NCBI RefSeq assembly: GCF_001424545.1
Contig: NZ_LMQL01000009.1
Location: forward strand, 124,001 to 188,000
Source: Ramlibacter sp. Leaf400
GTDB lineage: Bacteria; Pseudomonadota; Gammaproteobacteria; Burkholderiales; Burkholderiaceae_C
Length of the DNA stretch: 64,000 nt
Reading direction: 5' to 3'
Each line of letters starts with the position of its first letter. Position 1 is the first letter of the stretch. Below are positions 5,772-28,600 of the stretch, piece after piece. Under the pieces are notes generated by a model that saw nothing but the letters and a program-made list of their open reading frames with translations, did not search any database and had not been told where the DNA came from. Both the position numbers and the translations under genes were made by a program.

Positions 5772-7259
5772 ATGAACCCTGCCGGCCCAGCCGCACTCCT
5801 TTCCACCGGCATCCCAGGGCTGGACGTGATCCTTGGCGGTGGCCTCACGCCGCATCGCATCTACCTGGTCGAGGGTGAGCCCGGCACGGGCAAGACCACC
5901 ACCGGCCTGCAGTTCCTCAACGAAGGCGTGCTTCGCGGCGAAACGGTGGTCTACATCACCCTGGCCGAGAACCGTGAGGAGCTCACCGCCGTCGCGCTGT
6001 CGCACGGCATCGGCGTGGAGGGCATCCACATCCACGAGGTGCTGCCGACCGAAGACCTGCTGGCCGCCGAGCAGCAGTACACCACCTTCCACCCGTCCGA
6101 GGTGGAGATGGCCAGCACGCTCAAGCTGATCCTGAGCATCGTGGAGGAACTCAAGCCCAGCCGCATCGTGCTGGACTCGCTGTCCGAGTTGCAGCTGCTG
6201 GCCGATTCGCCGCTGCGCTACCGGCGCCAGGTGCTGGCGCTCAAGCAGTTCTTCTCCAATCGCCAGTGCACCGTGCTGCTGCTGGACGACCGCACGGCTT
6301 CGGCCTCGGGCGACCTGCAGGTGCGAAGCATCGCCCACGGTGTCATCCAGCTCGATCACCTGGTGAAGGACTACGGCGCGGAGCGCAGGCGCATCCGCAT
6401 CGTGAAGTTCCGCGGCCGCAGCTTCCTGGGCGGCATGCACGACTACAACCTGGTGCGGGGCGGGTTGTCCGTCCACCCTCGCCTGGTCGCGGCGAAGTCG
6501 CGCGGCATCACCGACCGCCGGCAGATGAGCACCGGCCTGCCCAAGCTCGACCTGCTGCTCGGGGGCGGCATCGAGCAAGGCACCAGCACCCTCATCGTCG
6601 GCCCCCCGGGCACGGGCAAGTCCTCGCTCGCCTCGCAGTTCGTGGCGGCCGCCATCGACCGCGGCGAACGCGCCGCCATGTTCCTGTTCGAGGAATCGGC
6701 CAGCAACATGCTCCACCGCAGCGACGGAATGAACCTGCGCATCCGCGAGGCGATGGACTCGGGCGCCCTCAGTGTCCAGCAGGTGGATCCCGCCGAACTC
6801 TCGCCGGGGCAGTTCTCCGCGGCCGTGTGCAAGTCGGTGGAAGCGGGCACCAAGGTGGTGGTGATCGACAGCCTCAACGGCTTCCTCAATGCCGTGCCCG
6901 ACGAGCGCTTCCTGACCACGCACCTGCACGAGCTGCTGACCTACCTGGGCCAGCACCAGGTGCTGACGGTGCTGGTCGCCGTGCAGCAGGGGATGCTGGG
7001 CGGGCAGATGTCCTCCGCGATGGACGCGAGCTACATCGCCGACAACGTGCTGATGCTGCGCTACTTCGAGGACAACGGCGAGATCCGCCAGGCGGTGTCG
7101 GTCTTCAAGAAGCGCGGCAGCGTCCATGAACGCACCATCCGCGAGTTCTCGATGTCCGCCGGGGGCATCGAGGTGGGCGAGATCCTGCGCGGCTACCGCG
7201 GGCTGCTGACGGGCATTCCCCTGCCGCTTTCCGGCGCCGTCCCGGACGCCAAGTCCTGA
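5772..7259 (+). CDS. KaiC-like double-domain RecA ATPase
   Basis: 495 residues with two tandem KaiC/RecA domains. Walker A motifs are GEPGTGKT (35-42) and GPPGTGKS (277-284). The second domain keeps the catalytic Glu pair (FEES, E307-E308). In the first domain the equivalent site reads AEN (A65-E66), so one Glu is missing. At the position of the cyanobacterial KaiC phosphosites Ser431/Thr432 this protein has Ser420-Tyr421 (MDASYIADN). The C-terminal VFKKRGSVHERTIREF block is well conserved. No kaiA or kaiB is present. Its stop overlaps the next start (TGATG), so it is made together with a histidine kinase; it is probably a signalling ATPase rather than a full clock. Confidence 0.93.
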   Translation: MNPAGPAALLSTGIPGLDVILGGGLTPHRIYLVEGEPGTGKTTTGLQFLNEGVLRGETVVYITLAENREELTAVALSHGIGVEGIHIHEVLPTEDLLAAEQQYTTFHPSEVEMASTLKLILSIVEELKPSRIVLDSLSELQLLADSPLRYRRQVLALKQFFSNRQCTVLLLDDRTASASGDLQVRSIAHGVIQLDHLVKDYGAERRRIRIVKFRGRSFLGGMHDYNLVRGGLSVHPRLVAAKSRGITDRRQMSTGLPKLDLLLGGGIEQGTSTLIVGPPGTGKSSLASQFVAAAIDRGERAAMFLFEESASNMLHRSDGMNLRIREAMDSGALSVQQVDPAELSPGQFSAAVCKSVEAGTKVVVIDSLNGFLNAVPDERFLTTHLHELLTYLGQHQVLTVLVAVQQGMLGGQMSSAMDASYIADNVLMLRYFEDNGEIRQAVSVFKKRGSVHERTIREFSMSAGGIEVGEILRGYRGLLTGIPLPLSGAVPDAKS

Positions 7260-8755
7260 TGGAACGTCGCGTCCTCGTGTACGGCCCGCCTGGCCGGGAT
7301 GCCCTGCTCGTCGAGAAAGTCTTCCGCACGGCGGCCCTCGAGGTGAGCCACTGCGACACCCCCGCGAAGCTGGCGGAGCAACTGCAGCTCGGGGCCGGTT
7401 CGCTCATGCTGGGCGAGGAAGTCCTGAGCCCCGCGACGATGGCCGTGGTCTCGGAGTACCTGGAGCAGCAGCCCGCGTGGTCCGACCTGCCGATCCTGCT
7501 GCTGGCCAAGCACGGGGCCGACTCCCTGGTGGCGCAGCGCGCGATCGAGAAGCTGGGCAACGTCACGCTGCTGGAGCGCCCGGTGCGCACCATGGCCCTG
7601 GTCAGCGCCGCCCGTTCGGCCCTGCGTGCGCGCGATCGCCAGTACGAGATGCGCGCCCTCAGCCGGCGCAAGGACGAATTCCTGGCCGCGCTGGCGCACG
7701 AGCTGCGCAATCCGCTTGCGCCGATCAGCAACGCGATGGCCATCCTGCAGCGCCAGCACCCTTCCCCGCAGACCGAAAAGCTCACCGGCATCGTCGAGCG
7801 CCAGGTCAGCCACCTCAAGCGCCTGGTGGACGACCTGCTGGACATCGCGCGCATCACCAACGGCAAGCTGGAGTTGCAGCGCTCGGTGACCAGCGTCGAG
7901 AAGATCGTCCAGCACGCGACCGAGATCGCGCAGGAGGGCATCACGGCGAAGGCGCACCGGCTCACGGTGCATCCGCTGCAAGGCCCGGTGGACCTGTACG
8001 CCGACCACGTGCGCCTGGTGCAGTGCGTCGCCAACCTGCTGGTGAACGCCGCCAAGTTCACGCCGCCCTCGGGCGACATCAGCCTGTCGGTGAACGTGGC
8101 GCCGCCGTGGGTCGAGTTCGTGGTGCGGGACAGCGGCAAGGGCCTGGAGCCGGAGTTCCTCGGCCGGATCTTCAACATCTTCTCGCAGTCGCGCACCGTG
8201 GGCGAGCCGACGTCGGGACTGGGGCTGGGCCTGCACCTCACCCGCGCCTTCGCCCAGCTGCACGGCGGCACGATCACGGCCCGCAGCGACGGGCCGGGCC
8301 ACGGGAGCGAGTTCGTGCTCAGCGTCCCCGTCGTGGTGAACGCGACGGGCGAGCAGGAGGCCAACCCGCGTCCGAGCGGCGGCCATCTCCATCGCAGCAT
8401 CCTGGTGGTGGACGACAACGTGGATGCGGCCAGCACCCTGGGCGCCCTGCTCACGCTGCAAGGCGCTTCGGTGGAGGTCGTCCACGACGGCGCGCAAGCG
8501 GTGGCGGTCGTCCAGCAGCACCGGCCGGAGGCCGTCGTCATGGACATCGGCATGCCGGTGATGAACGGCTATGACGCCGCGCGGGCCATCCGGGCCGCGA
8601 TGCCCGACGACGCGCCGACGCTCATCGCCCTGACCGGCTGGGGCCAGTACGCGGACAAGGCGCGCGCCCTGGAAGCAGGCTTCGACTACCACTTCGTCAA
8701 GCCGCTGGACATCGAGGACCTGATCGGCTGCCTGCACACGATCCGCTGCGACTGA
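7259..8755 (+). CDS. Hybrid histidine kinase: pseudo-receiver, HisKA, HATPase, receiver
   Basis: 498 residues. Residues 1-115 look like a receiver fold lacking the phospho-acceptor Asp (MLGEEVL where a D is expected; LPILLLAKHG and LLERPV blocks present). A HisKA domain has the H-box LAHELRNPLAPI with His147. The ATPase part has NLLVNAAKF, VRDSGKGLEPE and GLGLGLHLTRAF. A C-terminal receiver has DD (VVDDNVDAA), phospho-acceptor Asp429 (VVMDIGMPVMNG) and the KPLD lysine motif. There is no transmembrane segment, so the kinase is cytoplasmic. The overlap with the KaiC-like gene suggests the ATPase supplies the input. A separate DNA-binding response regulator is not present nearby. Confidence 0.93.
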   Translation: MERRVLVYGPPGRDALLVEKVFRTAALEVSHCDTPAKLAEQLQLGAGSLMLGEEVLSPATMAVVSEYLEQQPAWSDLPILLLAKHGADSLVAQRAIEKLGNVTLLERPVRTMALVSAARSALRARDRQYEMRALSRRKDEFLAALAHELRNPLAPISNAMAILQRQHPSPQTEKLTGIVERQVSHLKRLVDDLLDIARITNGKLELQRSVTSVEKIVQHATEIAQEGITAKAHRLTVHPLQGPVDLYADHVRLVQCVANLLVNAAKFTPPSGDISLSVNVAPPWVEFVVRDSGKGLEPEFLGRIFNIFSQSRTVGEPTSGLGLGLHLTRAFAQLHGGTITARSDGPGHGSEFVLSVPVVVNATGEQEANPRPSGGHLHRSILVVDDNVDAASTLGALLTLQGASVEVVHDGAQAVAVVQQHRPEAVVMDIGMPVMNGYDAARAIRAAMPDDAPTLIALTGWGQYADKARALEAGFDYHFVKPLDIEDLIGCLHTIRCD

Positions 8756-8791
8756 GCGCAGCGGCGCGGCTGGACGGGACGTCTTGCGCCG

Positions 8792-10186
8792 TCAGCCGAC
8801 CAGCTTCACCAGGTTGCCGGCGGCCGCGGCACCGAACTGCCTCACCCGGTCCCGCGCCGCGACCACCCCCGGATGGTCGCGGTAGCTTCCGCCGATCCGG
8901 CCCAGGGGATTCAGCCGCGTCCCCTTGGCCCAGGCCGCCAAGGCGGGAGAGGCCGCGCGGGCCCGCTCGCTGGCCAGGAGCGCCAGGTACGCGCGCAGGT
9001 AGTCGGCGCTCGTGTCCCAGTACTTGATGGCGGGACACAGGCGGTTCTTCTCCTCGTCGCTTTCGACCGTGGCCTCGACGACGCCCAGCAGGGCGAACTG
9101 GAAACTGGAGAAGCTCCAGAAGCAGGGTTGCACGGTGATCCGGTCGGGCTCGAAGATCGGCCGCGGGGTGCGGTACGCGAGGCCGCTCGCGGCGCAGTGC
9201 ACGTGCAGGGTGTCGGCATCGGTGGGCACCACGCCCCCGTCCAGCAGGATGCGATCGCGCTCGATCCGGCGCACCCGCCCCAGGCGCACCACGTCCTCGA
9301 TCTGGCGCAACAGCTTCTGTTCCGCCTCGCTGAGGATGGCGCCATGCAGCATCGTGGGCGCCACGTTGGGGTCCACGCGCAGGAGGAAGCCGTCCGCTTC
9401 GAGCCGCAGCATCGCGTCGTCCACCGAGCCGGCCTGCGCGAAAGCCTGCATCTGCAGGGCCACGCCGTCCAGGAAGGCGGGAAGTCCGTCGTGCGGCTGG
9501 TGGAAGCGGCGATTGAGCCACCACCCTTCCCGCGACTTGATCCAGGTGATGTCGGCCGGCGGCACGCCCTGCTCCAGCAACCAGACGCAGGTGTCCATCG
9601 CCGTCTTGCCCGCGCCGACGATGACGTACCGCCCTGCTCTCCCGTCGATGCGTGCCACTGCGCCTGCGGGGCACCAGCGCACCCCCTCGGCCACCTCGAA
9701 GGGCGGCGCCCCGACGGCGGGGATGGCGCCTTCCAGGTAGCTGGTGTCCACGAGCTTGCGCCGCACGCGCACCTCATGCGCGGCGCCGGTCAGGCGCGAG
9801 ACGAACGTGTGCCGGCCGTTCTCGCCGCCGGTGTGGTCGCTGCACGGGAAGTAGCGCACCCGCCCGGTCGGCAGGAAAGACTGCTGCATCACCCGGGCGA
9901 AATACGCGCGCAGTTCATCGGCGCCGGCGACCTCGTAGAAGCCGGCATTCACCCCCGAGCGGTCGATCGCATCCTGCCCCAGCGCGGTGGAACTGACGCC
10001 GTAGAAGGCGGACGGCTGGTGAAGCCGCACGAAGGGATAGGCATCGATCCAGTGCCCGCCGGGCGCATGGCGCCGGTCGACGATGGCCAGCGTGGCATCC
10101 GAGTGCGCAAGAAGCTCGTCGGCGATGGCCATGCCCGCCGCGCCGGCTCCGACCACGAGGTAGTCGACATCGAAAGCATTGCCCAT
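8792..10186 (-). CDS. FAD/NAD(P)-binding oxidoreductase, monooxygenase-like
   Basis: 464 residues from the ATG at 10186, preceded by AAGGGA; a TTG two codons upstream is less likely. The N-terminal dinucleotide fold has DYLVVGAGAAGMAIADE and an acidic strand end (LAIVDRRHAPGGHW). A second nucleotide fold (YVIVGAGKTAMDTCVWLLEQ) starts at about residue 185. The HPS/Trp-rich segment (IKSREGWWLNR) and overall length resemble flavin-containing monooxygenase or thioredoxin-reductase-like flavoproteins. Substrate unknown. It is convergent with the histidine kinase gene and seems monocistronic. Confidence 0.8.
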   Translation of the reverse strand: MGNAFDVDYLVVGAGAAGMAIADELLAHSDATLAIVDRRHAPGGHWIDAYPFVRLHQPSAFYGVSSTALGQDAIDRSGVNAGFYEVAGADELRAYFARVMQQSFLPTGRVRYFPCSDHTGGENGRHTFVSRLTGAAHEVRVRRKLVDTSYLEGAIPAVGAPPFEVAEGVRWCPAGAVARIDGRAGRYVIVGAGKTAMDTCVWLLEQGVPPADITWIKSREGWWLNRRFHQPHDGLPAFLDGVALQMQAFAQAGSVDDAMLRLEADGFLLRVDPNVAPTMLHGAILSEAEQKLLRQIEDVVRLGRVRRIERDRILLDGGVVPTDADTLHVHCAASGLAYRTPRPIFEPDRITVQPCFWSFSSFQFALLGVVEATVESDEEKNRLCPAIKYWDTSADYLRAYLALLASERARAASPALAAWAKGTRLNPLGRIGGSYRDHPGVVAARDRVRQFGAAAAGNLVKLVG

Positions 10187-11555: not shown

Positions 11556-12176
11556 ATGACCGACCTGCCCTACAGCGCCGCCGCGGATCGCAACAAGGAG
11601 CCCATCCTCGCCGAACTTGCGCGGATCCTCGGGCCGCGGGGCACGGCCCTGGAGATCGCTTCCGGCACCGGCCAGCACGTCGCCTTCTTCGCGGGCGTGC
11701 TGAAGGGCTGGGAGTGGCAGCCCACCGAAGCGGAACCCGGCTTGCTGCCTGTGATCGCCCGACGCAGCGCGCCGGCCGGCCTCGCCAACGTGCGCGCACC
11801 GCTGGTGCTCGACGTGATGGCCTCGCCATGGCCTTCCCCGTCCGCGCCGTTCCCGCATCCCTTCGATGCCATCTATTGCGCGAACATGCTGCACATCTCG
11901 CCGTGGAGCACCTGTGCCGCGCTCATGGGTGGCGCCGCGCGGCACCTGGCCGAAGGCGGGCTGCTGATCACCTATGGCCCGTACTTCGAGGCCGATCGTC
12001 CGGCCGCGCCCAGCAACATCGCCTTCGACGAGAGCCTGCGGGCGCGCGATCCGTCCTGGGGCATCCGGCAGGTGTCGGACGTCTCGGCGCAAGCGCAGCG
12101 GGCCGGCCTGGTGCTGCGCGAGCGGCATGCGATGCCCGCGAACAACCTGCTCCTGGTCTTCGCCAAGGGCGGGTGA
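11556..12176 (+). CDS. DUF938 class I SAM-dependent methyltransferase
   Basis: 206 residues from the ATG at 11556 (MTDLPYSAAADRNKEPIL); a GTG 45 bases upstream adds an unlikely leader. The SAM-binding glycine motif is ALEIASGTGQHVAFFA at about residues 30-45. The IYCANMLHISPWS and AEGGLLITYGPY segments are hallmarks of the DUF938 family. Substrate is not established for the family as far as I know. It precedes the dehydrogenase gene at 12229 by about 50 bases on the same strand and may be co-transcribed. Confidence 0.88.
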   Translation: MTDLPYSAAADRNKEPILAELARILGPRGTALEIASGTGQHVAFFAGVLKGWEWQPTEAEPGLLPVIARRSAPAGLANVRAPLVLDVMASPWPSPSAPFPHPFDAIYCANMLHISPWSTCAALMGGAARHLAEGGLLITYGPYFEADRPAAPSNIAFDESLRARDPSWGIRQVSDVSAQAQRAGLVLRERHAMPANNLLLVFAKGG

Positions 12177-12228
12177 GCCGGCAGGGCGACATGCGTCGCT
12201 ATCATCGAACGCGCTTCAAGGAGATCGC

Positions 12229-13119
12229 ATGAAGGTCGGCATCGCCGGAACCGGCAAGATGGGCAGCGTCGTGGCCGCACGGCTGCAATCGCTGGGGCAC
12301 GAAGTCAGCGTCTGGAACCGCACGCGAGCACGGGCCCAGCCGCTGCTGGACAGCGGCATCGGGTGGGCGGCAACCCCTCGCGAGCTGCTGGCCGCGTCGG
12401 ACGCCGTCATCACCTTCCTCACCTACGAAGCCGCGCTGGACGAGGTCTATCTCGCTCCTGCCGGCCTGCTGTCCTCTCCTTGCGGCGGCAAGCTGCTGGT
12501 CGAGATGAGCACGGTCGCGCCGGCCAAGCAGCAGCAGCTCGCTTCCCGCGCAGCGGAGGCCGGCGCCGCCTACGTCGAATGCCCGGTGGGCGGCAGCGTC
12601 GGCCCCGCCAAGGAGGGCAAGCTGATCGGTTTCGCCGGCGGCGCGGCCGCGGACGTGGAGCGCGCGCGCGAACTGCTGGCGCAGCTGTGCCGGCGCGTGG
12701 AGCACGTCGGCCCCCACGGGGCGGGCGCCACCATGAAGCTGGCCGTCAACCTGCCGCTGATGGTGTACTGGCAGACGCTGGGCGAGGCGCTCTCGCTGGT
12801 CGAGCCGTTGAAGCTGGACCCGGCCCGCGTGATCGACATCCTGTCCGACTCGTCCGGCGGGCCCAACATGCTCAAGGTGCGCGGCGGCATGATCGCCAAG
12901 GCGCTCGCCGGCGATGCGGGTGGCGCGGTCACGGTGGACATCGCCACCATGCACAAGGACGTGCAGAAGATGCTGCAGCTGGCCGGCAGCCTGCAGCGGC
13001 AGCTGCCCCTGACCGCACGGACGGCCCAGAGCCTGCGCGAGGCCATGGACGAGGGGCTGGCGCAGGCCGACTGCGCGCAGCTGCCGGTCTGGTGGCTGAA
13101 GGAAGCGGGCCGCGCCTAG
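12229..13119 (+). CDS. NAD(P)-dependent beta-hydroxyacid dehydrogenase (HIBADH family)
   Basis: 296 residues from the ATG at 12229, with AAGGAG just upstream. The Rossmann motif is GIAGTGKMGSVVAARL (residues 4-19). The substrate-binding motif is CPVGGSVGPAKEGKL and the catalytic lysine region is GAGATMKLAVNLP. These define the 3-hydroxyisobutyrate / tartronate-semialdehyde / glyoxylate-succinic-semialdehyde reductase family. The physiological substrate cannot be decided from sequence. It converges with the Bug-receptor gene, leaving only 10 bases between stops. Confidence 0.9.
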   Translation: MKVGIAGTGKMGSVVAARLQSLGHEVSVWNRTRARAQPLLDSGIGWAATPRELLAASDAVITFLTYEAALDEVYLAPAGLLSSPCGGKLLVEMSTVAPAKQQQLASRAAEAGAAYVECPVGGSVGPAKEGKLIGFAGGAAADVERARELLAQLCRRVEHVGPHGAGATMKLAVNLPLMVYWQTLGEALSLVEPLKLDPARVIDILSDSSGGPNMLKVRGGMIAKALAGDAGGAVTVDIATMHKDVQKMLQLAGSLQRQLPLTARTAQSLREAMDEGLAQADCAQLPVWWLKEAGRA

Positions 13120-14113: not shown

Positions 14114-14312
14114 CTGTTCTTCCCCTATGTGCATGTGCCGCGATGCGACCCGTCGGACCGATGGGTTCGCATGGCAGGTTGGAAGCATGCTAACTGCGGC
14201 CCGGCAGGCGGCGGATGCGGAGAATCCCTTGCGGCCCGCAGTTCAGGCAAGTCGCTGGCCCCTGTGCTTGGGCAACCTCTGCCAGCCAGTGCCGTCGCGC
14301 GCCAGAACTGCC

Positions 14313-15560
14313 ATGCTCACCGACATGCACACGAACCGTTCCCCCCAAGTGGCCGGGCAGGACTGCCTTCTGATCCGCAACGTGCGCCCCCCGGAGGCCG
14401 ATGCCCTCGACGTCTGGATCCAGGCCGGGCGCTTCGCCGCCTTCGGCCGGGACTTGGCCGTGCCCACCGGCTGCGCAGTGGAAGATGGCGGCGACGCCTT
14501 GCTGCTGCCCGGCCTCGTCGAAGGCCACACCCACCTCGACAAGACAATGTGGGGCCTGCCGTGGTATCGCAATGAGGTCGGTCCCCTGTTGACCGACAAG
14601 ATCCACAACGAGCGCAGTTTCCGCGCAGCCAGCGGCCACGACGCCGGCACCCAGTCCCTCGGGCTGGCCCGGGCGTTTCTGGCGCACGGCACGACACGGC
14701 TGCGGACCCACGTGGACATCGACACCCAAGGCGGTCTCGCTCACCTCGACGGCGTGCTTCGCACGCGCGCAATGATGGGTCCGCTGCAGGAGATCCAGGT
14801 GGTCGCTTTCCCCCAGTCGGGCCTGTTGTGCCGACCCGGAACCGCGGACCTGCTCGATCGCGCCATGGTGCAGGGCGCCGACGTCCTGGGCGGCCTCGAC
14901 CCCTGCGCGATCGACGGCGACCCGGTGGCATCGCTCGACGCCCTGTTCGCGATCGCGGACCGTCGCGGCTGTCCCGTGGACATCCACCTGCATGAGCCCG
15001 GCGCCATGGGTGCATTTTCGCTGGGCCTGATCCTCGACCGGACGCAGGCCCTGGGCTTGCGCGGGAAGGTGGCGATCAGCCACGCCTTCTGCCTGGGCGA
15101 AGTGCCCGATCGCGAGCGGGATGCGCTGCTCGCGCGCATGGCCGATCTCGGCGTCGTCGTCATCACCACGGCTGCGCCTTCACGTGTCGTTCCGTCCCTG
15201 ATGGCCTGCCGGGCAGCGGGCGTGACCGTGGTCGGCGGCAATGACGGCATCCGGGACACCTGGACGCCGTACGGTCTGCCCGACATGCTGGAGCGGGCGA
15301 TGCTGATCGGCCTGAAATACAACCTGCGCCGCGACGACGAACTGGCACTCGCCCTGGATTGCGTCACCGGCGCGGCCGCGCGCGGCCTCGGGTTCGCGGA
15401 CCATGGACTGGCGGTCGGGTGCCGGGCCGACGCCGTGCTGGTCGACGCACGCACCGTTGCGGAAGCCGTGGTTGCGCGACCGCCGCGGCGCTGCGTACTG
15501 GCGGCAGGCCGCATCGTCGCGCGCGGCGGCGTCTTGCTGTCGCAGGCCGTGGCCGCGTGA
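14313..15560 (+). CDS. Amidohydrolase, cytosine-deaminase-like
   Basis: 415 residues from the ATG at 14313; the ribosome site is weak and ATG 14325 is an alternative. Metal-site motifs of the amidohydrolase superfamily are GHTHLDKT, THVDID, DIHLHEPG, SHAFCLGE and GNDGIRDTWTPYG. The last resembles the GHD-D-W motif of cytosine deaminase and related N-deaminases. The enzyme probably hydrolyses an amine or amide on a cyclic substrate in the cytoplasm. Divergent Bug receptor suggests uptake of the substrate. It lies about 3 kb from the Rut-like operon, so a pyrimidine link is possible but unproven. Confidence 0.85.
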   Translation: MLTDMHTNRSPQVAGQDCLLIRNVRPPEADALDVWIQAGRFAAFGRDLAVPTGCAVEDGGDALLLPGLVEGHTHLDKTMWGLPWYRNEVGPLLTDKIHNERSFRAASGHDAGTQSLGLARAFLAHGTTRLRTHVDIDTQGGLAHLDGVLRTRAMMGPLQEIQVVAFPQSGLLCRPGTADLLDRAMVQGADVLGGLDPCAIDGDPVASLDALFAIADRRGCPVDIHLHEPGAMGAFSLGLILDRTQALGLRGKVAISHAFCLGEVPDRERDALLARMADLGVVVITTAAPSRVVPSLMACRAAGVTVVGGNDGIRDTWTPYGLPDMLERAMLIGLKYNLRRDDELALALDCVTGAAARGLGFADHGLAVGCRADAVLVDARTVAEAVVARPPRRCVLAAGRIVARGGVLLSQAVAA

Positions 15561-16969: not shown

Positions 16970-18487
16970 TTACCGATTGCTCGGGAAGCTGAACATGACC
17001 CCTTCTCGAATGCCAGCCGAGGGCCAGCGCTGCGTGATGGTCTTGCGCTTCGTGTAGAAGCGCACGGAGTCCGGCCCGTAGGCATGCAGATCCCCGAACA
17101 AGGATCGCTTCCACCCGCCGAACGAGTGATAGGCCACCGGCACCGGCAGTGGAACATTCACTCCGACCATGCCGACCTGGATGTTGTCGCTGAAGAACCG
17201 CGCCGCTTCGCCGTCGCGAGTGAAGATGCAAGTGCCGTTGCCGTACTCGTGCGCGTCGATCATCTGCATCGCCTCCTCCAGCGACGCGGCGCGTATCACG
17301 CCCAGGACGGGGCCGAAGATTTCATCCTTGTAGATCGACATCTCCGGCGTGACGTGATCGAACAGGCAGGGGCCCAGGTAGTAGCCCCCCTCATGGCCCT
17401 CGACCTTCACGTTCCGGCCATCGACCACCAGTTTCGCACCCGACGCCACGCCGGCGTCCACATACGATCTGACCTTCTCGAAATGCGGCCTCGTGACCAG
17501 CGGTCCCATGTCGTTGGTGTCGTCGCTGCCGGGCCCGACCTTCATCTTGGCGATCTCCGCCTTCAGGCCTTCAACCACCGCGTCGCCTGCCTCGTTGCCG
17601 ATCGCGACCACGAGCGGGATGGCCATGCAGCGCTCGCCGCAGGAGCCGTAGGCCGCGCCCATCAACGCGCTCACCGCGTTGGGGATGTCCGCGTCCGGCA
17701 TCACCACGGCAAAGTTCTTGGCGCCACCAAGAGCCTGCACGCGCTTGCCGTGGGCACAGCCGGTGCTGTAGATGTACTCGGCGATGGCCGTGGAGCCGAC
17801 GAAGCTGATCGCCTTCACGCGGGAATCGGTCAGCAGCGTGTCCACGGCTTCCTTGTCTCCGTTCACCACGTTCAGCACGCCCGGCGGCAGGCCCGCTTCC
17901 AGCGCCAGTTCCGCGACGAAAAGCGTCGAGGAAGGCGTGCGTTCGGCGGGCTTGAGCACGAAGGTGTTTCCGCAGGCGACGGCCATCGGCCACATCCACA
18001 GGGACACCATCACCGGAAAATTGAACGGGGTGATGCCGCTGCACACGCCCAATGCCTGGAACTCGCTCCAGGAGTCGATGGCCGGTCCGACGTTCTTCGA
18101 GTGTTCGCCCTTGAGGAGCTGGGGTGCATAGCTGGCGAACTCGACGTTCTCGATGCCGCGGATGATCTCGCCCATGGCGTCGGACTGCACCTTGCCATGC
18201 TCGGCCGTGATGAGTGCGCACAGCTTGTCGGCGTTTTCTTCCAGCAGGGTCTTCATGCGACTCAGGACGCGCGCACGCTTGAGGGGCGGTGTGTTCCGCC
18301 ACGCGGGAAAAGCCGCCTGGGCCGAGGCGATGGCCTGTTCGACGGTCAGCTTGTCGGCCAGGGCGACACTCTTGCTGGACAGGCCGGTGGCCGGATCGAA
18401 GATCGGCTGGAAGCGGTCGCCGCCGGCGACGTGTCTACCGTCGATGAAATGACCCAACACGGTGGTCACGCTTTTGTCGCGATGCAT
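16970..18487 (-). CDS. mmsA: CoA-acylating (methyl)malonate-semialdehyde dehydrogenase
   Basis: 505 residues from the ATG at 18487; the in-frame upstream extension has shadow composition. Family signatures: ITPFNFPVMVSLWMWP, LGGAKNF and the catalytic region GSCGERCMA with Cys287. Known enzymes convert methylmalonate or malonate semialdehyde plus CoA and NAD to propionyl- or acetyl-CoA. Here it is the last gene of a Rut-like operon, 59 bases after rutD. It is well placed to turn the malonic semialdehyde made by RutC/RutD into acetyl-CoA, replacing the RutE reductase of E. coli (inference). Valine catabolism is the alternative role. Confidence 0.92.
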   Translation of the reverse strand: MHRDKSVTTVLGHFIDGRHVAGGDRFQPIFDPATGLSSKSVALADKLTVEQAIASAQAAFPAWRNTPPLKRARVLSRMKTLLEENADKLCALITAEHGKVQSDAMGEIIRGIENVEFASYAPQLLKGEHSKNVGPAIDSWSEFQALGVCSGITPFNFPVMVSLWMWPMAVACGNTFVLKPAERTPSSTLFVAELALEAGLPPGVLNVVNGDKEAVDTLLTDSRVKAISFVGSTAIAEYIYSTGCAHGKRVQALGGAKNFAVVMPDADIPNAVSALMGAAYGSCGERCMAIPLVVAIGNEAGDAVVEGLKAEIAKMKVGPGSDDTNDMGPLVTRPHFEKVRSYVDAGVASGAKLVVDGRNVKVEGHEGGYYLGPCLFDHVTPEMSIYKDEIFGPVLGVIRAASLEEAMQMIDAHEYGNGTCIFTRDGEAARFFSDNIQVGMVGVNVPLPVPVAYHSFGGWKRSLFGDLHAYGPDSVRFYTKRKTITQRWPSAGIREGVMFSFPSNR

Positions 18488-18546
18488 GGGAAACCTCTGA
18501 ATCTGATGGGGATGAAGCAGTGCCGGATCGTGTCGCCGCGAGCGGC

Positions 18547-19320
18547 TCACAAGTACAGGAAGTCCGTCACCACCGAGTTGAAGGCCGCGGGGTCCGTGAT
18601 GTTGGACGCGTGCCCCCCGTGGTCGAACAGGTGAAGGTGGGCGTTCGGCAACCCTTGCGCCAGGCGCTGCGAAGCGGTCCATGGCACGAGCACATCGTCA
18701 CGGGTCGCCACCACCAGCGTCGACGTCTGGATGTCGCCCAGCTGGGACGACACGTCGAAGGCCCTCAGCGCCGCAATGCGCTTGAGCAAGGTGTCGCGGC
18801 CCTGGAAGTGCCGGACACCGTGCGCTTCCTCCTGCGCCACCCATTCCGCGTGCTCCGACAGCCAGGCAGCGGGGTACAGGAAGAGAGGCTGCGCCTGCAC
18901 ATAGGCCTCGGCCCCGCCGGCGTCGAGCAAGCGCTGGCGGACTGCGAAGCAACGCGCGGTATGAGTGTCCAGCCGGTCCCATGCGTTGACCAGCACGAGA
19001 CGGTCCAGACGCTCTGGACAACGCCGTGCCAGCTCGAGCCCGACCAGGCCGCCGAGCGCATGCCCCATGAAATGGCAGCGGCCGATTTCGGCTTCGTCGA
19101 GGATGCCGATGACGTCGTCCACCATATGGGCGATGGAATAGCCCTCCGGCAACGGCTCCCGGTTGCGGCCGGTCCCGCGCTGGTCGTACAGCACGACGCG
19201 AAGCTGCGGAGCCAGCGCGTCGAGCTGCGGCTGCCAGTAAGACCCGGCGCCGCCCAAACCCGCGGAAAGCAGGATGGTCGGCGCACCGGCCTCGGTGCGA
19301 CCCCGGATCTCGTATTTCAC
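18547..19320 (-). CDS. rutD: RutD-like alpha/beta-fold protein (nucleophile position is Ala)
   Basis: 257 residues from a GTG at 19320 that overlaps the stop of the ATPase gene (GTGA). It matches E. coli RutD closely over its length as I recall that sequence: SAGLGGAGSYWQPQL, LYDQRGTGRN, GYSIAHM and QPLFLYPAAWL. RutD promotes aminoacrylate hydrolysis to malonic semialdehyde in pyrimidine catabolism. The nucleophile elbow reads GHALG with Ala88 where hydrolases have Ser, as I recall for E. coli RutD. His is kept in GGHASN. It sits directly upstream of mmsA and is probably co-transcribed with it. Confidence 0.9.
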   Translation of the reverse strand: MKYEIRGRTEAGAPTILLSAGLGGAGSYWQPQLDALAPQLRVVLYDQRGTGRNREPLPEGYSIAHMVDDVIGILDEAEIGRCHFMGHALGGLVGLELARRCPERLDRLVLVNAWDRLDTHTARCFAVRQRLLDAGGAEAYVQAQPLFLYPAAWLSEHAEWVAQEEAHGVRHFQGRDTLLKRIAALRAFDVSSQLGDIQTSTLVVATRDDVLVPWTASQRLAQGLPNAHLHLFDHGGHASNITDPAAFNSVVTDFLYL

Positions 19321-20099
19321 GCGGCCACCTCGATGCCGAGTTCACCCCAGATCTGGTCGTACAACAGGTTGAAGGCGGGCAGCTTGCGGATCCGCAGCGG
19401 GTGGCGGAACTCCGCGGGAATGTCGATGTCGTGCACGGCATGCACGCGCCCCGGCCGGTGGGTGATCACGACGATCCGGTCGGCCATCGTGATGGCCTCG
19501 CCCACGTCGTGCGTCACGAGCACGACGCTGCACTGCCGCTCGCGAATGATCCGCAGCATGTCGCCCTGCAGGATCAGCCGGGTCTGGCTGTCCAGTGCGG
19601 AGAACGGCTCGTCGAGCAGGATCACGTCCGGATTGAAGGCGAGCGTCCGCATGAACGCCACCCGCTGGCGCATGCCGCCGGACAGTGCGGACGGCAGGCT
19701 GTTCTCGAAATCTTTCAAGCCATAGGCCGAGATGAGCTCCCGCGCGATGCGGTCCGCTTCCTTGCGGGGGACGTGCCGCACTTCCAGCCCGATGATGACG
19801 TTCTCCAATACCGTGCGCCACGGCAGGAGCAGGTCCTTCTGCAGCATGTAGCCGACGTGGCCGGTGGCATCGTGCACTGGCACGCCGTCGATCAGGATCG
19901 AGCCCCGCGTGGGCTCCAGCAGCCCGGAGATGATGTTGAACAGCGTCGTCTTGCCGCAGCCGGAGGGACCGACGATGGCCACCACTTCTCCGCGCCGCAA
20001 ATCGAAGCTGATGTCCTCGATGGCGGTCACCGCCTTGGGCGTGCCTTCGTTGAACGTCATGCCGACGTTGCGGGCATTGAGTACGACGTCGCGCTTCAT
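19317..20099 (-). CDS. ABC transporter ATP-binding protein (nitrate/sulfonate/pyrimidine type)
   Basis: 260 residues. Walker A GPSGCGKTT (about 44-52), signature LSGGMRQRV, Walker B VILLDEPFSALD and the His-loop LVTHDVGEAI are all intact. It belongs to the SsuB/TauB/ThiZ-type group. Start and stop both overlap neighbours by 4 bases (rutD-like gene upstream, rutD downstream), so it lies inside one translationally coupled operon. With the permease at 20919 and binding protein at 22921 it completes an importer that would replace the RutG permease. Confidence 0.93.
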   Translation of the reverse strand: MKRDVVLNARNVGMTFNEGTPKAVTAIEDISFDLRRGEVVAIVGPSGCGKTTLFNIISGLLEPTRGSILIDGVPVHDATGHVGYMLQKDLLLPWRTVLENVIIGLEVRHVPRKEADRIARELISAYGLKDFENSLPSALSGGMRQRVAFMRTLAFNPDVILLDEPFSALDSQTRLILQGDMLRIIRERQCSVVLVTHDVGEAITMADRIVVITHRPGRVHAVHDIDIPAEFRHPLRIRKLPAFNLLYDQIWGELGIEVAA

Positions 20100-20908
20100 G
20101 GCTGCGCTCCTTGTTTCATCCGGTGTTGCTCCAGGAAGGCGAGCACCGTTTCGTTGAAAAGATCCGGTTCGGTCCGCGACATCGCGTGGGCGCCGTGCGG
20201 CATGCGGGCGAGCTGCGCCCCGGGGATGCGTCGCGCCAGCAGTTCCGAGGAATGAGGCGGCGTGAGGATGTCGTCGTCGGCCACCAGGACGAGGCTGGGA
20301 CAGCGGATCCGCTCAAGGTAAGGCAGGCCGTCGAACGCCATGATGCCGTTCAGGCGCGCCTCCAGGATCGAGGCGGAGGGCGATGCCCCGGTGGCCGTGG
20401 CCACCTCCCGTTCCAGCGCCTCGTCGTTCGCGCAGATGTAGTCCGGCGGATAGAGGAACAGCGGCGTGGCCCGGTGGTATTCGCCGGGACCCGCCTTCTG
20501 CAGCACCAGTCGGCGCAACCGCAGGCACCGGGCCATCTGCGCGTCCAGCGTCGCCCAGGTGGCGTACAGGACCAGGCTCGCGATGCGCGACGGCTGCGTG
20601 GCGGCCAGTACCTGCCCGATCGCGCCGCCCGTGGAGTGGCCCACCAGGTGGGCGCGCCTGATGTCCAGCGCGTCCATGAGCTTCAGCAGGTCCGCGGCCA
20701 TCAGCTCCACGGAGTACGGCATCTCGCAGCGCGTGCTGCGGCCAGTTCCGCGGTGGTCGTGGAGCACGACCTGGTAGCGCGCGGCGAGGGCTTCGACGTT
20801 CGGCTGCCAGTAGCTGGCCGCGCCGCCCAGCCCGGCGACCAGCAGCAAGGGTTCGCCCGTGCCGACGACCTCGTAGTGGATCTCGGCATCGCCGATGTTC
20901 ACGTGCAT
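20096..20908 (-). CDS. Second RutD-like alpha/beta hydrolase (Ser nucleophile present)
   Basis: 270 residues, clearly paralogous to the RutD gene two genes downstream: VAGLGGAASYWQPNVEAL, HDHRGTGRST, ATPLFLYPPDYI. Unlike that copy its elbow is GHSTGG with Ser92. An acid in VADDDILTP and a His in HGAHAMS complete a plausible catalytic triad, so it should be an active hydrolase. Its stop overlaps the ATPase start by 4 bases. Possible roles are aminoacrylate or carbamate-type hydrolysis, or removing a substituent from a modified pyrimidine breakdown product; none is proven. Confidence 0.88.
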   Translation of the reverse strand: MHVNIGDAEIHYEVVGTGEPLLLVAGLGGAASYWQPNVEALAARYQVVLHDHRGTGRSTRCEMPYSVELMAADLLKLMDALDIRRAHLVGHSTGGAIGQVLAATQPSRIASLVLYATWATLDAQMARCLRLRRLVLQKAGPGEYHRATPLFLYPPDYICANDEALEREVATATGASPSASILEARLNGIMAFDGLPYLERIRCPSLVLVADDDILTPPHSSELLARRIPGAQLARMPHGAHAMSRTEPDLFNETVLAFLEQHRMKQGAQP

Positions 20909-20918
20909 GGCGGCTCCC

Positions 20919-21779
20919 TCAACGCCAGGTGAGGCGACGCTCGATCCAGCCGACGATCGCGTCCAGGACCAGGGCGAGCGCCATCAGGGCGAAGATGCCG
21001 ACCCACACGCCATTCAGGTTGTAGAGCGTGCCGGCGTAGTACACCAGGTAGCCCAGCCCCTTTTCGGCCGAGATGTACTCGCCGACGACGGCGCCGATCA
21101 TGGCGAAGCCGATGTTGAGCCGGAAGGCCGACGCGATCCATGGCACGGACCCGGGCACGATGACCATGCGGAAGATTTGCAGCCGCTTGGCGCCGAGCGC
21201 CCGCAGCATGCGCACGTAGTCCTGATCGACCTCCTGGCTGCCGGTGTAGCTGGTGAGCAGCGCGACGATGAACGTGATGGCCGCCGCCACGGCGATCTTC
21301 GACTCGATGCCCACGCCGAACCACACGATGATGAGCGGCGCCAGGGCGATCTTGGGCAGGCCGTTGAGTGCCACCATCAGAGGCCGCAGGATGGCCGCGG
21401 CGGTCGGCGACAGCCACAGGAGCAATCCCGCGGCCGAACCGAGCACGCTGCCGATCAGGAAGCCGATGATGGCCTCCTGGGCGGTGACCCAGGTGTCGGC
21501 CAGCAGTTGCCCGGACGCGAGCCGGAGCACGAACTCGCGCCACACGCCGCTGGGCTGGCCATAGGAATAGACCGGGAGCCACTGGGCGCGCACCGCGACC
21601 TCCCATGCCAGGAAGATGCATGCGAGCAGCAGCACCTGACCGATCAGGACACGCAGCGCGGTCTTGCCGGTCCGCGGCCTGGGCCTGGCCTCGCGCGCCG
21701 GCTTTTCTGGTACTTGCGCGCCAGCTTGGGCGTCGGGTGGGCTGAAGGGCACGGCGGATACGGCGTTGGTGTGTGCCAT
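20919..21779 (-). CDS. ABC transporter permease (SsuC/ThiX type)
   Basis: 286 residues from the ATG at 21779; a GTG at 21785 overlapping the rutC stop is an alternative. A Pro-rich cytoplasmic leader of about 40 residues precedes about six transmembrane helices. The EAA-type loop reads RMLRALGAKRLQIFRMVIVPG and contacts the ATPase. Two bases separate this ATG from the rutC stop region, and 10 bases separate its stop from the next gene. It forms the membrane channel of the importer coded in this operon. Confidence 0.92.
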   Translation of the reverse strand: MAHTNAVSAVPFSPPDAQAGAQVPEKPAREARPRPRTGKTALRVLIGQVLLLACIFLAWEVAVRAQWLPVYSYGQPSGVWREFVLRLASGQLLADTWVTAQEAIIGFLIGSVLGSAAGLLLWLSPTAAAILRPLMVALNGLPKIALAPLIIVWFGVGIESKIAVAAAITFIVALLTSYTGSQEVDQDYVRMLRALGAKRLQIFRMVIVPGSVPWIASAFRLNIGFAMIGAVVGEYISAEKGLGYLVYYAGTLYNLNGVWVGIFALMALALVLDAIVGWIERRLTWR

Positions 21780-21781
21780 CG

Positions 21782-22171
21782 TCACTTCTCGCCGACGTAC
21801 GCCGTCGTGGCGATCTCGACCAGGAACTCAGGGCGCACGAGGTCGGCCCTGATGCAGTAGCGAGCGGGCGGACTCTCGGGAAAGTATTCCTTGTAGACGA
21901 CGTTCATGGCCGCGTAGTCGCCCAGGTCCTTCAGGAAGATCTGGTTGAACACCACGTCCTTCATCGTGCCACCGGCCGTCTCGATGACGGACTTGATGGT
22001 GTCCAGGACGATGCGTGTCTGCTCCTTGGCATCGCCCACGGCGAGGGTCTCACCCTTGCTGCCGATGGCGAGCGTGCCGGAAACGTAGACGAAACCGCCT
22101 GCCTTGACGCCGGGGCTGTAGGGCGCCAGCGGCGGAGCGGAACCGGGAGGGATGAGGACGGTGAAGGACAT
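21782..22171 (-). CDS. rutC: RutC, 3-aminoacrylate deaminase (RidA family)
   Basis: 129 residues, AGGAG upstream of the ATG. It tracks E. coli RutC through the whole length as I remember it: IPPGSAPPLAPYSPG, GGFVYVSGTLA, VIETAGGTMKDV, PARYCIRADLV and LVEIATTAYV. The RidA active-site Arg is in ARYCIRAD. The enzyme speeds deamination of 3-aminoacrylate in the cytoplasm. It follows rutB by 42 bases in the same operon. Generic RidA proteins lack this RutC-type start, so the specific assignment is good. Confidence 0.92.
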   Translation of the reverse strand: MSFTVLIPPGSAPPLAPYSPGVKAGGFVYVSGTLAIGSKGETLAVGDAKEQTRIVLDTIKSVIETAGGTMKDVVFNQIFLKDLGDYAAMNVVYKEYFPESPPARYCIRADLVRPEFLVEIATTAYVGEK

Positions 22172-22213
22172 GGGGTGGCTCCTGTCGTGAACGGGGAAAG
22201 GGCGGGCCGGCCT

Positions 22214-22900
22214 TCAGGCCGTGGCCGGCTCGACACAGGCTTCGACGAACTGGTCGACGGTGGTGGTCCAGCCGAAGAATCGTTCGACGTTGTAGACCGT
22301 CGCGTCCTGGATGTAGGCCGGGCCAGCCTGGAAGCAGGCGTCGCGGATCAGCACCGGGAAGTACTCGTGGAAGAAGGCGTCGCGGATGGTCGACTCGACA
22401 CAGACGTTGGTCGCCGTGCCGCACACGAGCATCGTGTCGATGCCGCGGCTGCGCAGGAGACTGTCCAGTGCGGTGCTCGTGAAGCCGCTGTAGCGCGGCT
22501 TGGGGATGACGATGTCCCCTGGACGCGGCTGGAGGGCATCCACGAAGGCGTAGTCCCAGGTGCCCTTCGTGAGCAGCATCCCGGCAAGCTCCGGGCGCTC
22601 GCGCATCAGCTTCAGCGAGTTGCCCTTGCGCTGGTTGACCGACCCCGGCCCACCGGCCTCCTTTTGTTCCCTGTCCCAGCCGTTCTGCAGCCAGAAGACC
22701 TGGATGCCAGACCTGTAGGCGGCATCCAGCGCGCGCTGGATCGCCGGGACGACGGAGGCGGTGGCCGAGAGATCGACCCCCAGGTGGCTGAAGTAGCCAC
22801 CGGGCGAGCAGTAGCCGTTCTGCATGTCGACCACCACCAGGGCGCTGCGCGCGGGATCGATTTCGAATGCTTCGGGACGGGCGGAAAGATGGAAAGGCAT
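22214..22900 (-). CDS. rutB: RutB, ureidoacrylate amidohydrolase (isochorismatase fold)
   Basis: 228 residues from the ATG at 22900. Catalytic Asp25 (VVVDMQNGYCSPGGY), Lys134 (IPKPRYSGF) and Cys167 (GTATNVCVES) form the cysteine-hydrolase triad. Segments FWLQNGWD, EAGGPGS, LTKGTWDY and TTVDQF match RutB rather than other isochorismatase-like hydrolases. RutB splits (peroxy)ureidoacrylate to aminoacrylate, carbamate and, on decay, CO2 and NH3. It is 20 bases downstream of the binding-protein gene. In E. coli it acts after RutA, which is absent here. Confidence 0.93.
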   Translation of the reverse strand: MPFHLSARPEAFEIDPARSALVVVDMQNGYCSPGGYFSHLGVDLSATASVVPAIQRALDAAYRSGIQVFWLQNGWDREQKEAGGPGSVNQRKGNSLKLMRERPELAGMLLTKGTWDYAFVDALQPRPGDIVIPKPRYSGFTSTALDSLLRSRGIDTMLVCGTATNVCVESTIRDAFFHEYFPVLIRDACFQAGPAYIQDATVYNVERFFGWTTTVDQFVEACVEPATA

Positions 22901-22920
22901 GGGAGAAGACGGATCGGTGT

Positions 22921-23982
22921 TCAAGCTTTCTTCACGGCCTTGGTCGCGCGCTCGGCGAACCGGTTGTCGACCATGTCCTCGTAGGGGCGGGGAGACTTCA
23001 CGGAACCTCCAGCCAGCTCCAGGGCCATGTTGGTGTCCCATTCCTGCTTGGAGATCGTCGGGTTCACGGGGATGGCCGTCGACTTGGTCAGGAGGTTCTC
23101 GCCCGCTGCGCGGATGACCGCGGGTTCCACCTGCGGGAACTCGGCGATCGAGGTCTTCACGAACAGCTCGCGGTCGGCGTGCAATGCGGCCTGGGACTCG
23201 GCGATGGCATTGCAGAAAGCCTGCACCAGCGCCGGGTCCTTCTCGACCAGGCTCTTCTGGGCGATCGCGGTCGTCCACGACAGCGGGCCGATGACGTCGG
23301 CGAAGGCGAACACGGGCTCGAGGCCGAACTTCTGCTTGGCCAGGCTCACGTCCCACTCGAACATGGTCGCGACGTCCGCACGCCCGTCGAGCACCGCTTG
23401 CGCCTGGGCGCCGGCCGGCAACTGCAGGAACTTGACCCCCGCGCCTTCGGGGTCGAAGCCGCCTCGCTCCTTCATGGCGAAGGTCGGCATCTGGATGGTG
23501 GAGGACGGGAACCGCAGCGTCGCGATCGTCTTGCCGCGGAAATCCTCGATCTTCTTGATGCTGGAGCCCGGCTTGGCGACGGCCCACATCGCCACTCCGC
23601 CAACGATCTTCGCGATGTTGGTCAGCTGGGCCCCTTCGTTGGTGGCGTTCACGGACATGCCCGCGCCGGTCACGGCGAAGCTCGCCTTGCCCGAGAGCAC
23701 GACGGGCACGGCCAGCGCGATGCCGCCGGCCGAGCTCACCGCCACGTCGAGCCCATGCTTGCGGAAGTAGCCGCCGTGCTTGGCGGCATAGAGCGACACG
23801 TACATGCCAAGGTGGATGGCCTCCGAGACGGAGATGCTCTTGAGGCCCTGGGCAATGGCTGGCGCGCCGACACTGCCAAGCAAGGCGCCGAAGCTGGCGG
23901 CACCTGCGCCGATCAGTACTTCTCTGCGGGTGCGGGTGATCACGGCCGGGGCCGTGATGGCTGGGATGGGGGGCTTGGTCAT
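22921..23982 (-). CDS. ABC transporter substrate-binding protein (NMT1/SsuA-like), Tat signal
   Basis: 353 residues from the ATG at 23982, preceded by AGGAGTTCCG; a GTG at 24003 is weaker. A twin-arginine signal TRTRREVLIGAGAASFG lies at about residues 16-32. The mature protein starts at about LKSISVSEAIHLGMYVSLYAA. The IALAVPVVLSGKASFAVTG and DFRGKTIATLRFPSS segments are typical of the NMT1/THI5/SsuA group, some members of which bind pyrimidines. First gene of the Rut-like operon, so its ligand is probably the precursor degraded by RutB/C/D. Confidence 0.9.
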   Translation of the reverse strand: MTKPPIPAITAPAVITRTRREVLIGAGAASFGALLGSVGAPAIAQGLKSISVSEAIHLGMYVSLYAAKHGGYFRKHGLDVAVSSAGGIALAVPVVLSGKASFAVTGAGMSVNATNEGAQLTNIAKIVGGVAMWAVAKPGSSIKKIEDFRGKTIATLRFPSSTIQMPTFAMKERGGFDPEGAGVKFLQLPAGAQAQAVLDGRADVATMFEWDVSLAKQKFGLEPVFAFADVIGPLSWTTAIAQKSLVEKDPALVQAFCNAIAESQAALHADRELFVKTSIAEFPQVEPAVIRAAGENLLTKSTAIPVNPTISKQEWDTNMALELAGGSVKSPRPYEDMVDNRFAERATKAVKKA

Positions 23983-24026
23983 CGGAACTCCTGTGAAGCG
24001 CACTCAGAGTACGGCGGGAGTTCGTG

Positions 24027-24137: not shown

Positions 24138-25058
24138 TCAGGCCCGACGCTTCTTCACGTTCTTGCCGGCGACCGCAATCTCATCCGTGAGAAGGCTCAG
24201 GAAGGCGCGGGCAGCATGCGGCAGCGGCCGGTCACGATGCACGCACACGGCGGAGCGGGCCGCAGCGAAGTCCGGCTCGTCCACCGGCACCAGGAGAAGA
24301 GCACCCATCTCGACTTCGTGCGTGACGTTCAGCGCAGGCATGAAAGCGATGACCTGTCCCGTGACGGCCATCGTCTTCGTCAGCTCGAGCGAGTTGGTCG
24401 TGACGACTACCTTGGGCTCGTAGCCGTACTTGCGAACGGCCCGATCGAAGACCTGGCGCAAGCCGAAGCTGTGCTCGGGCAGCGCCAGCGGTTGCTTGCA
24501 GATATCCACCATGCGCAGGCTCTTGCGCCGGGCGTAGGGATGGCTCTTGGCCACCAGGCAGGAAATCGGCTCGATGAACTCGCCCACCACTTCGATTTCG
24601 GCCCGCGGCGCCGCATTGAAGGTGACGCCAATATCCGTCCAGTCCTCGAGCAGCGCCTCGACTATGCGGTCCGTCGGCGCCGTCTGCACGTTGAAGGAGA
24701 CGTCGGGGTAGCGCCGGTTGAACTCGGCAATGATGCGCGGCAAGAAGTCCGAGACCAGGCCTTCCAACACCCAGATCGTGATCTCGCCGCGTCGCAGCCC
24801 CCGCAGGTCGTCCAGTGCCACGCGTGCCCGCTCCAGGTCCTGGAAGATCCGCCGCGTTTCGCGATGCAGCACCTCGCCGGCGGCGGTGAGCTGGACACCG
24901 AGCTTGGAGCGCTCGAACAGCACCGCGTCGAACTCGTCCTCGAGCTGCGCGATCTGCCGGCTGACCGCGGAAGGCGCTACATGCAGTCGATCGGCGGCCC
25001 GCCGGACCGAACCGAGCTTGGCGACCTCGTGGAAGTACCGGATCGTCAGGAATCGCAT
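24138..25058 (-). CDS. LysR-family transcriptional regulator (next to Rut-like operon)
   Basis: 306 residues from the ATG at 25058. The winged helix-turn-helix is FHEVAKLGSVRRAADRLHVAPSAVSRQ split over residues 9-35, followed by IAQLEDEF and a LysR effector domain. The C-terminus is basic (KNVKKRRA). The gene lies on the same strand as, and 155 bases upstream of, the binding-protein gene of the Rut-like operon. It is the likeliest regulator of that operon. No RutR (TetR-type) gene is present. Confidence 0.9.
   Translation of the reverse strand: MRFLTIRYFHEVAKLGSVRRAADRLHVAPSAVSRQIAQLEDEFDAVLFERSKLGVQLTAAGEVLHRETRRIFQDLERARVALDDLRGLRRGEITIWVLEGLVSDFLPRIIAEFNRRYPDVSFNVQTAPTDRIVEALLEDWTDIGVTFNAAPRAEIEVVGEFIEPISCLVAKSHPYARRKSLRMVDICKQPLALPEHSFGLRQVFDRAVRKYGYEPKVVVTTNSLELTKTMAVTGQVIAFMPALNVTHEVEMGALLLVPVDEPDFAAARSAVCVHRDRPLPHAARAFLSLLTDEIAVAGKNVKKRRA

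Positions 25059-25146: not shown

Positions 25147-28600
<3,454 letters not shown>

Follow-up and report, generated by a model that had tools for sequence, protein, structure and literature searches.

A RutA-less rutB-rutC-rutD block with its own ABC importer in Ramlibacter sp. Leaf400 and related loci

The DNA analysed here, referred to below as the window, is a 64-kb stretch of the Ramlibacter sp. Leaf400 genome (contig NZ_LMQL01000009.1, positions 124,001 to 188,000). It carries relatives of the E. coli genes rutB, rutC and rutD, interleaved with the genes of an ATP-binding cassette (ABC) importer. RutB, RutC and RutD are known as steps downstream of RutA; here, they occur without it.

Gene content of the block

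The genes run along the minus strand from 25058 to 16970, in the order lysR, substrate-binding protein (SBP), rutB, rutC, permease, rutD1, ATPase, rutD2 and mmsA. The distances between successive genes from the SBP to mmsA are 20, 42, 2, 10, -4, -4 and 59 bases (range -4 to +59). The features are:

24138-25058, minus strand: LysR-type regulator, 306 amino acids, upstream of and codirectional with the block; PF00126 and PF03466 (in a longer frame)
22921-23982, minus strand: importer SBP, 353 amino acids; PF09084 NMT1 (frame 22921-24003)
22214-22900, minus strand: rutB, ureidoacrylate amidohydrolase-like, 228 amino acids; 57% identical to E. coli RutB, below the TIGR03614 cut-off
21782-22171, minus strand: rutC, 3-aminoacrylate deaminase-like Rid protein, 129 amino acids; TIGR03610, 55% identical to E. 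coli RutC
20919-21779, minus strand: importer permease, 286 amino acids; PF00528 (longer frame from 21785), SsuC/TauC-like, below both cut-offs
20096-20908, minus strand: rutD1, alpha/beta hydrolase with GHSTGG, 270 amino acids; TIGR03611, 240.3 against a cut-off of 238.5
19317-20099, minus strand: importer ATPase, 260 amino acids; PF00005, TauB/SsuB-like, below the equivalog cut-offs
18547-19320, minus strand: rutD2, RutD proper with GHALGG, 257 amino acids, GTG start; TIGR03611, 375.9 against 238.5
16970-18487, minus strand: mmsA, CoA-acylating (methyl)malonate-semialdehyde dehydrogenase, 505 amino acids; TIGR01722, 633.7 against 448.5 (longer frame 16970-18682)

All of the genes named in an earlier, sequence-only reading (rutB, rutC, rutD, a second rutD-like gene, an SsuABC-like importer and mmsA) are thus present on the minus strand. 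The predicted ABC importer is complete, with an SBP, a permease and an ATPase. That reading had also noted the lack of RutA, RutE, RutF and RutG in the flanks, and this is upheld: queries with E. coli RutA, RutE, RutF, RutG and RutR gave zero matches in the window at E <= 1e-4.

The 57% identity between the window RutB and the E. coli enzyme extends over 218 residues, and E. coli RutB is its top match in the PDB (8bkd, E 2.9e-84). Its TIGR03614 score of 313 bits is under the cut-off of 377.95, and ureidoacrylate amidohydrolase activity is predicted here from sequence. The window protein keeps D24, Q26, N72, W74, K133, Y136 and C166. Across 58 aligned RutB sequences (53 related loci described below, the window and four rut-operon copies), the first six never vary, and C166 is found in 57 of the 58, the remaining one having a gap there. 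The catalytic and binding residues given in PMC12553813 are the same, numbered one higher. The RutB of Bradyrhizobium-type blocks is ~70% identical to E. coli RutB and scores above the TIGR03614 cut-off.

RutC belongs to TIGR03610 by a narrow score (169.3 bits against 169.1), and its Arg104 is kept in 56 of 56 sequences, the window included. According to PMC8113886, RutC is a 3-aminoacrylate deaminase that is inactive in its R104A form, RutD may aid carbamate loss, and growth on uridine needed neither RutC nor RutD.

Both RutD copies score above the TIGR03611 cut-off, and rutD2 is 45% identical to E. coli RutD. The proteins fall into two types by the residue at the nucleophile position, which is either serine (GHSTG) or alanine (GHALG, GHAIG or GHAVG; alanine as in E. 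coli). The window carries both, the serine type as rutD1 and the alanine type as rutD2. Over the 54 related loci both types occur in 11, the serine type alone in seven, the alanine type alone in 33, and none or a truncated locus in three. The existence of two types, one of them lacking a serine nucleophile, may help to settle the role of RutD.

The LysR-type regulator was not among the genes of that reading. In Variovorax sp. UMC13 (L003) a LysR gene 84% identical to it likewise precedes the block, and a LysR gene adjoins the block in further genomes as well. A second LysR-type regulator (window 25147-26067, minus strand) lies directly upstream of the first. A promoter and terminator scan gave nothing above chance, and a tRNA scan found zero tRNA genes.

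Recurrence of the block and distribution of RutA

A search with an alignment of 25 SBPs returned 63 loci in named genomes, of which 54 with an SBP identity of at least 40% (L003-L056) were kept and nine at 23-26% were dropped. The six core genes (SBP, rutB, rutC, permease, rutD and ATPase) are complete in 51 of the 54, and the loci with the block span alpha- and betaproteobacteria. L035 ends with its contig; L056 has a block without rutB, rutC and rutD; and Pararobbsia (L045) keeps a reduced block of SBP, rutB, permease and ATPase, while its rutC and rutD belong to a rut operon ~65 kb away. The gene order varies in L049 and L050, where the ATPase is followed by rutB.

Flanks of up to 10 kb per side, less at contig ends, were searched at E <= 1e-8 over at least 35% of the query, and rutA, rutE, rutF and rutG were not found around any of the 53 rutB-bearing loci. 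The same queries detect rutA in the rut operons of L109, L111, L112, L140 and L141. The sole match of this kind is a RutF-like reductase in L056, which models for aromatic-hydroxylase and other flavin reductases match better, all below cut-off. Clustering of flanking open reading frames gave, apart from the block genes, their antisense frames, two kinds of LysR-like regulator and one wide cluster of 17 frames in 13 loci. In this last cluster, 10 of the 17 members were scanned, and all 10 are TctC receptors, in scattered positions; no conserved ring opener was seen beside the block. The RutA-less Rut variant with its own importer is therefore real and recurrent rather than a one-off.

Does RutA lie elsewhere in these genomes, as the sequence-only reading had offered as one option? 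The Leaf400 assembly amounts to 4.59 Mb in 15 contigs with an estimated completeness of 100%. RutA is absent from all of it; RutE, RutF and RutG were sought in the window. The RutA model gives one sub-threshold match (38.6 bits against a cut-off of 498.3), inside a nonribosomal peptide synthetase. The genome encodes two PF00296 proteins, one within a synthetase of this kind (TIGR04020) and one of the MsnO8 family (387.9 against 166.95, NCBIfam) with no RutA match at E <= 1e-5. Neither is RutA, and a copy elsewhere in this genome was rejected. The RutA/RutF oxygenase of the Rut pathway is thus lacking (RutA from the genome, RutF from the window), as are operon-linked RutE and RutG from the window at the threshold given above. 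Judged by RutA, this genome has no complete rutA-F set outside the window, the finding that the sequence-only reading had named as one that would refute it.

Among 46 block genomes surveyed for RutA, eight have a protein above cut-off, so that a RutA elsewhere is not borne out in the other 38 either. RutA was not detected in 26 of the 34 that are not metagenome-assembled genomes (MAGs). In three of the carriers with RutA (Variovorax UMC13, Bradyrhizobium BR 10289 and Pararobbsia) the block coexists with a rut operon that has a rutB of its own. The other five are taken up where the interpretation is weighed.

Markers of other uracil routes are patchy. URC4 occurs in 23 of 47 genomes, and dihydropyrimidine dehydrogenase in eight of 47, not including Leaf400 (E <= 1e-120), which led to rejection of the reductive route. 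In 16 of the 47 genomes, eight of them isolates, not one of RutA, URC4 and dihydropyrimidine dehydrogenase was found. On another contig of the Leaf400 genome, a URC4-like DUF1688 gene adjoins a GTP-cyclohydrolase-II-like gene near an amidohydrolase (G000:C10:140241-141446), and the same arrangement is found at L114:9504-10772. Such a pair probably represents the bacterial URC uracil pathway, and we take the Leaf400 pair to belong to that route. The URC route is not known to have a ureidoacrylate intermediate, and URC as a general ureidoacrylate source was rejected, URC4 being found in only about half of the genomes. A hydantoinase-family gene of Leaf400 may serve ureide use, as its neighbours are a thiamine pyrophosphate enzyme, xylose-isomerase-like and 3-hydroxyisobutyrate-dehydrogenase-like genes and a TRAP transporter.

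The window RutB groups with that of Variovorax UMC13 (87% identity) and then with Rhodopseudomonas-type sequences. It sits in a block-only clade of 17 rows (support 99/98), apart from six rut-operon rows. The fewest changes on the RutB tree give two origins of the blocks, and one origin is also compatible. Within the taxonomic family of Leaf400, 298 other genomes were sampled, with the top six candidates of each genome scored; a single genome has an SBP match at E <= 1e-60 (39% identity), and this match is of a sister type without rut genes. The RutB grouping and the rarity in the family suggest that the block was acquired from an alphaproteobacterial source.

The sequence-only reading had taken mmsA as a marker of the route. 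The gene does stand at the end of the window operon, and its weight as a marker is reduced: it adjoins the block in zero of the 54 related loci (in L005, L016, L035 and L055 the contig stops at the block or shortly beyond it), and two further family members in the Leaf400 genome score higher than the window MmsA. This count leaves out two weak aldehyde-dehydrogenase matches, on the outer margins of L010 and L045. On these grounds mmsA was dropped as a defining part of the block. Conversion of malonic semialdehyde to acetyl-CoA via MmsA is plausible in Leaf400 itself.

Other genes of the window lie outside the block. Near mmsA is an amidohydrolase of the PRK05985 group (14127-15560, plus strand; 546.5 against a cut-off of 408), with weaker cytosine-deaminase matches. 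A 3-hydroxyisobutyrate-dehydrogenase-like gene (11974-13119, plus strand), unlinked to the block, might act on malonic semialdehyde. An isochorismatase-type cysteine-hydrolase-like stretch (45445-45774, minus strand) is ~31% identical to the window RutB.

The likely cargo of the importer and competing explanations

The SBP exceeds the PF09084 gathering score (94.6 against 20.5 bits), and a twin-arginine stretch near its N-terminus is presumably as in Tat signals. Its AlphaFold model (pLDDT, the predicted local distance difference test, of 86.3) is nearest to folds of the ThiY/Thi5/SsuA/NrtA class, and a sequence search of the PDB gave weak matches. The fold was set aside as a ligand guide because it matches binders of varied ligands and is not decisive. 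Scores do not place the system among sulfonate or taurine importers (SsuA 48.2 against 163.5, TauB 195.1 against 357, SsuC 96.5 against 347).

Gene neighbourhoods of importer relatives give a first clue. Relatives of the SBP (24-32% identity) were examined at 17 loci hand-picked out of 51 plasmid records, over flanks of 6 kb in the first seven and 4 kb in the rest; at 16 of these loci the SBP gene has a neighbour annotated as an amide or C-N hydrolase. These hydrolases comprise amidases, acetamidase/formamidase, isochorismatase-type cysteine hydrolases, a carbon-nitrogen hydrolase and a cytosine deaminase. The sole exception is Paenibacillus, and in two of the 16 (Martelella and Tistrella) the hydrolase is divergently transcribed. 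In TauA-type control loci, found with E. coli TauA, none of seven has such a hydrolase within 4 kb; one unspecified alpha/beta hydrolase and one RidA gene were not counted. The difference gives a one-sided Fisher P of 2e-5, related records not being independent. On the Geobacillus plasmid pGARCT (L137:2065-5584), ssuB, ssuC and an SBP gene are followed by an annotated rutB that is 32-36% identical to the RutB set; the name looks over-assigned.

Sister importers (SBP ~40%, permease 55-61% and ATPase 58-60% identity) offer a second clue. In both loci known, an acyl-CoA synthetase gene follows the importer: L056 from an Acidovorax MAG (5767-10100), and L120 (5212-9485) from a genome of the same family, which also has a urocanase-family gene downstream. 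A frame with FlK and DSBA domains lies downstream in L120 as well. A search across the order with the sister SBP, covering 399 genomes with the five best candidates scored, matched only the Leaf400 genome at E <= 1e-45, which leaves the sister contexts at two. The adjoining synthetases suggest a carboxylic acid as cargo. Such a cargo would fit ureidoacrylate, which is an acid with an open ureide, and not uracil, which is neither. In addition, the Pararobbsia block is reduced to the importer and rutB, which would make sense if RutB acted on the imported compound itself.

The gene neighbourhoods, the reduced Pararobbsia block and the RutA-less carriers point to import of the RutB substrate rather than of uracil. 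The block may then be a self-contained uptake-and-degradation module for externally made ureidoacrylate, its 2-methyl form or a very close ureide, a reading for which belief and doubt are evenly balanced. If so, the ABC importer would take up the acid; RutB, as orthology and the kept residues suggest, would cleave it to carbamate and 3-aminoacrylate; and RutC, on the same grounds, would deaminate 3-aminoacrylate to malonic semialdehyde. One or both RutD proteins may assist a hydrolytic step, such as carbamate loss. In Leaf400 only, MmsA would convert malonic semialdehyde to acetyl-CoA. The LysR-type regulator probably senses the imported compound, and uracil itself is probably handled by the unlinked URC-type genes. 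RutA also converts thymine to 2-methylureidoacrylate, according to PMC7662398, and this product would suit MmsA too. The sequence-only reading had proposed a ureidoacrylate-like compound made by another route; degradation of such a compound is favoured here, and the gene neighbourhoods suggest that it is imported rather than made in the cell. For a modified pyrimidine as substrate, which that reading had also considered, the data speak neither way. The wider proposal, a widespread RutA-independent branch of pyrimidine catabolism in which ring-opened ureidoacrylates are imported from the environment by a dedicated ABC importer and degraded by RutB, RutC and RutD, is put forward tentatively, with belief falling a little short of even.

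Several observations weigh against import of the RutB substrate. The principal one concerns the five remaining genomes with RutA (the Tardiphaga-like G015-G018 and Pseudooceanicola G024), which have a lone rutA away from the block; the surrounding 14-16 kb contain no further rut gene. In G015, G016 and G024 no RutB other than that of the block is found at E <= 1e-60, which would suit feeding of the block by an internal RutA; G017 and G018 each have an additional, weaker RutB. These five genomes speak for a link to uracil there. Also, 12 of the 46 genomes surveyed are MAGs, in which absence of RutA is weak evidence. The SBP fold matches thiamin, pyrimidine, sulfonate, nitrate and bicarbonate binders alike. 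The hydrolase association comes from self-chosen loci and distant relatives, one of them without a hydrolase, and the acyl-CoA synthetase clue from two loci only. Finally, a search of the open-access literature for ureidoacrylate gave no paper whose title or opening abstract lines treat it as a nutrient. The lone rutA genes are at L107, L110, L116, L117 and L108, and in Pseudooceanicola a tandem rutA pair adjoins a branched-chain-type ABC transporter.

The split arrangement of these five genomes makes a divided uracil pathway possible there, and ThiY and Thi5, both pyrimidine binders, belong to the same fold class as the SBP. The importer could accordingly take up uracil, thymine or another pyrimidine whose ring is opened inside the cell by an unlinked enzyme unrelated to RutA. 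This is considered unlikely: flank clustering yielded no further kept gene able to open the ring, neither PF00296 protein of Leaf400 is RutA, markers of all three uracil routes checked are missing together from about a third of the genomes, and importer relatives adjoin amide hydrolases. The sub-cut-off score and separate clade of the window RutB, the serine nucleophile of RutD1, which E. coli RutD lacks, and the varied amide hydrolases beside importer relatives raise the further possibility that the block degrades another amide or ureide that RutB-like enzymes can likewise cleave, for example a different plant- or soil-derived N-acyl- or N-carbamoyl-enamine acid, from which the serine-type RutD1 would remove a further group. 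A gamma-lactam is a further substrate of E. coli RutB, according to PMC12553813. However, the checked RutB catalytic residues and RutC Arg104 match those of E. coli, and the Bradyrhizobium-type block RutB is close to the E. coli enzyme and above its family cut-off, which leaves this explanation less probable still. Rarity of the block in its own family, where the single match is a sister type without rut genes, would be in keeping with a relic that now serves no function, left after chance loss of rutA from a rut operon. Such a relic is highly improbable in view of the open reading frames, the conserved catalytic residues and a layout shared between distant lineages, with the importer always present.

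Significance and relation to known systems

The RutA-less rutB-rutC-rutD block with its own importer is a variant of the Rut pathway. No description of a rutA-less rut cluster with an importer was found in the open-access papers searched, and the accessible parts of PMC4433059, PMC13207237, PMC5343134 and PMC5806882 describe no such cluster. As rutBCD is RutA-less and tied to an importer in most carriers, annotating it as "uracil utilisation" in these genomes may be a mistake. The block also points to ureidoacrylate or a relative as a nutrient that is seldom sought. If the proposal of external ureidoacrylate is true, an unrecognised environmental pool would exist, fed by RutA-bearing microbes that leak the compound, by plants or by the chemical decay of pyrimidines.

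Compared with E. coli rutABCDEFG (NC_000913), the window has orthologues of rutB, rutC and rutD with the checked catalytic residues kept. It differs in lacking rutA, rutE, rutF, rutG and rutR, and in adding an ABC importer, a LysR-type regulator, mmsA and a second RutD with a serine nucleophile. The importer resembles the NMT1-type systems SsuABC, TauABC and ThiXYZ in its SBP fold and in its permease and ATPase families, but its proteins fall below the curated SsuA, SsuC, TauB and TauC cut-offs, and the operon has no sulfonate-cleaving enzyme. URC (URC1/URC4) catabolism is another uracil route with marker genes in the Leaf400 genome; its enzymes are unrelated and its genes lie on a different contig. 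Also comparable are plasmid clusters, for example those of Skermanella, Roseomonas and Geobacillus, in which a related SBP, permease and ATPase stand beside a C-N hydrolase of the amidase, acetamidase or isochorismatase type. These clusters are nevertheless distant from the block, with SBPs 24-32% identical to that of the window and isochorismatase-type hydrolases 28-38% identical to its RutB over the aligned parts.

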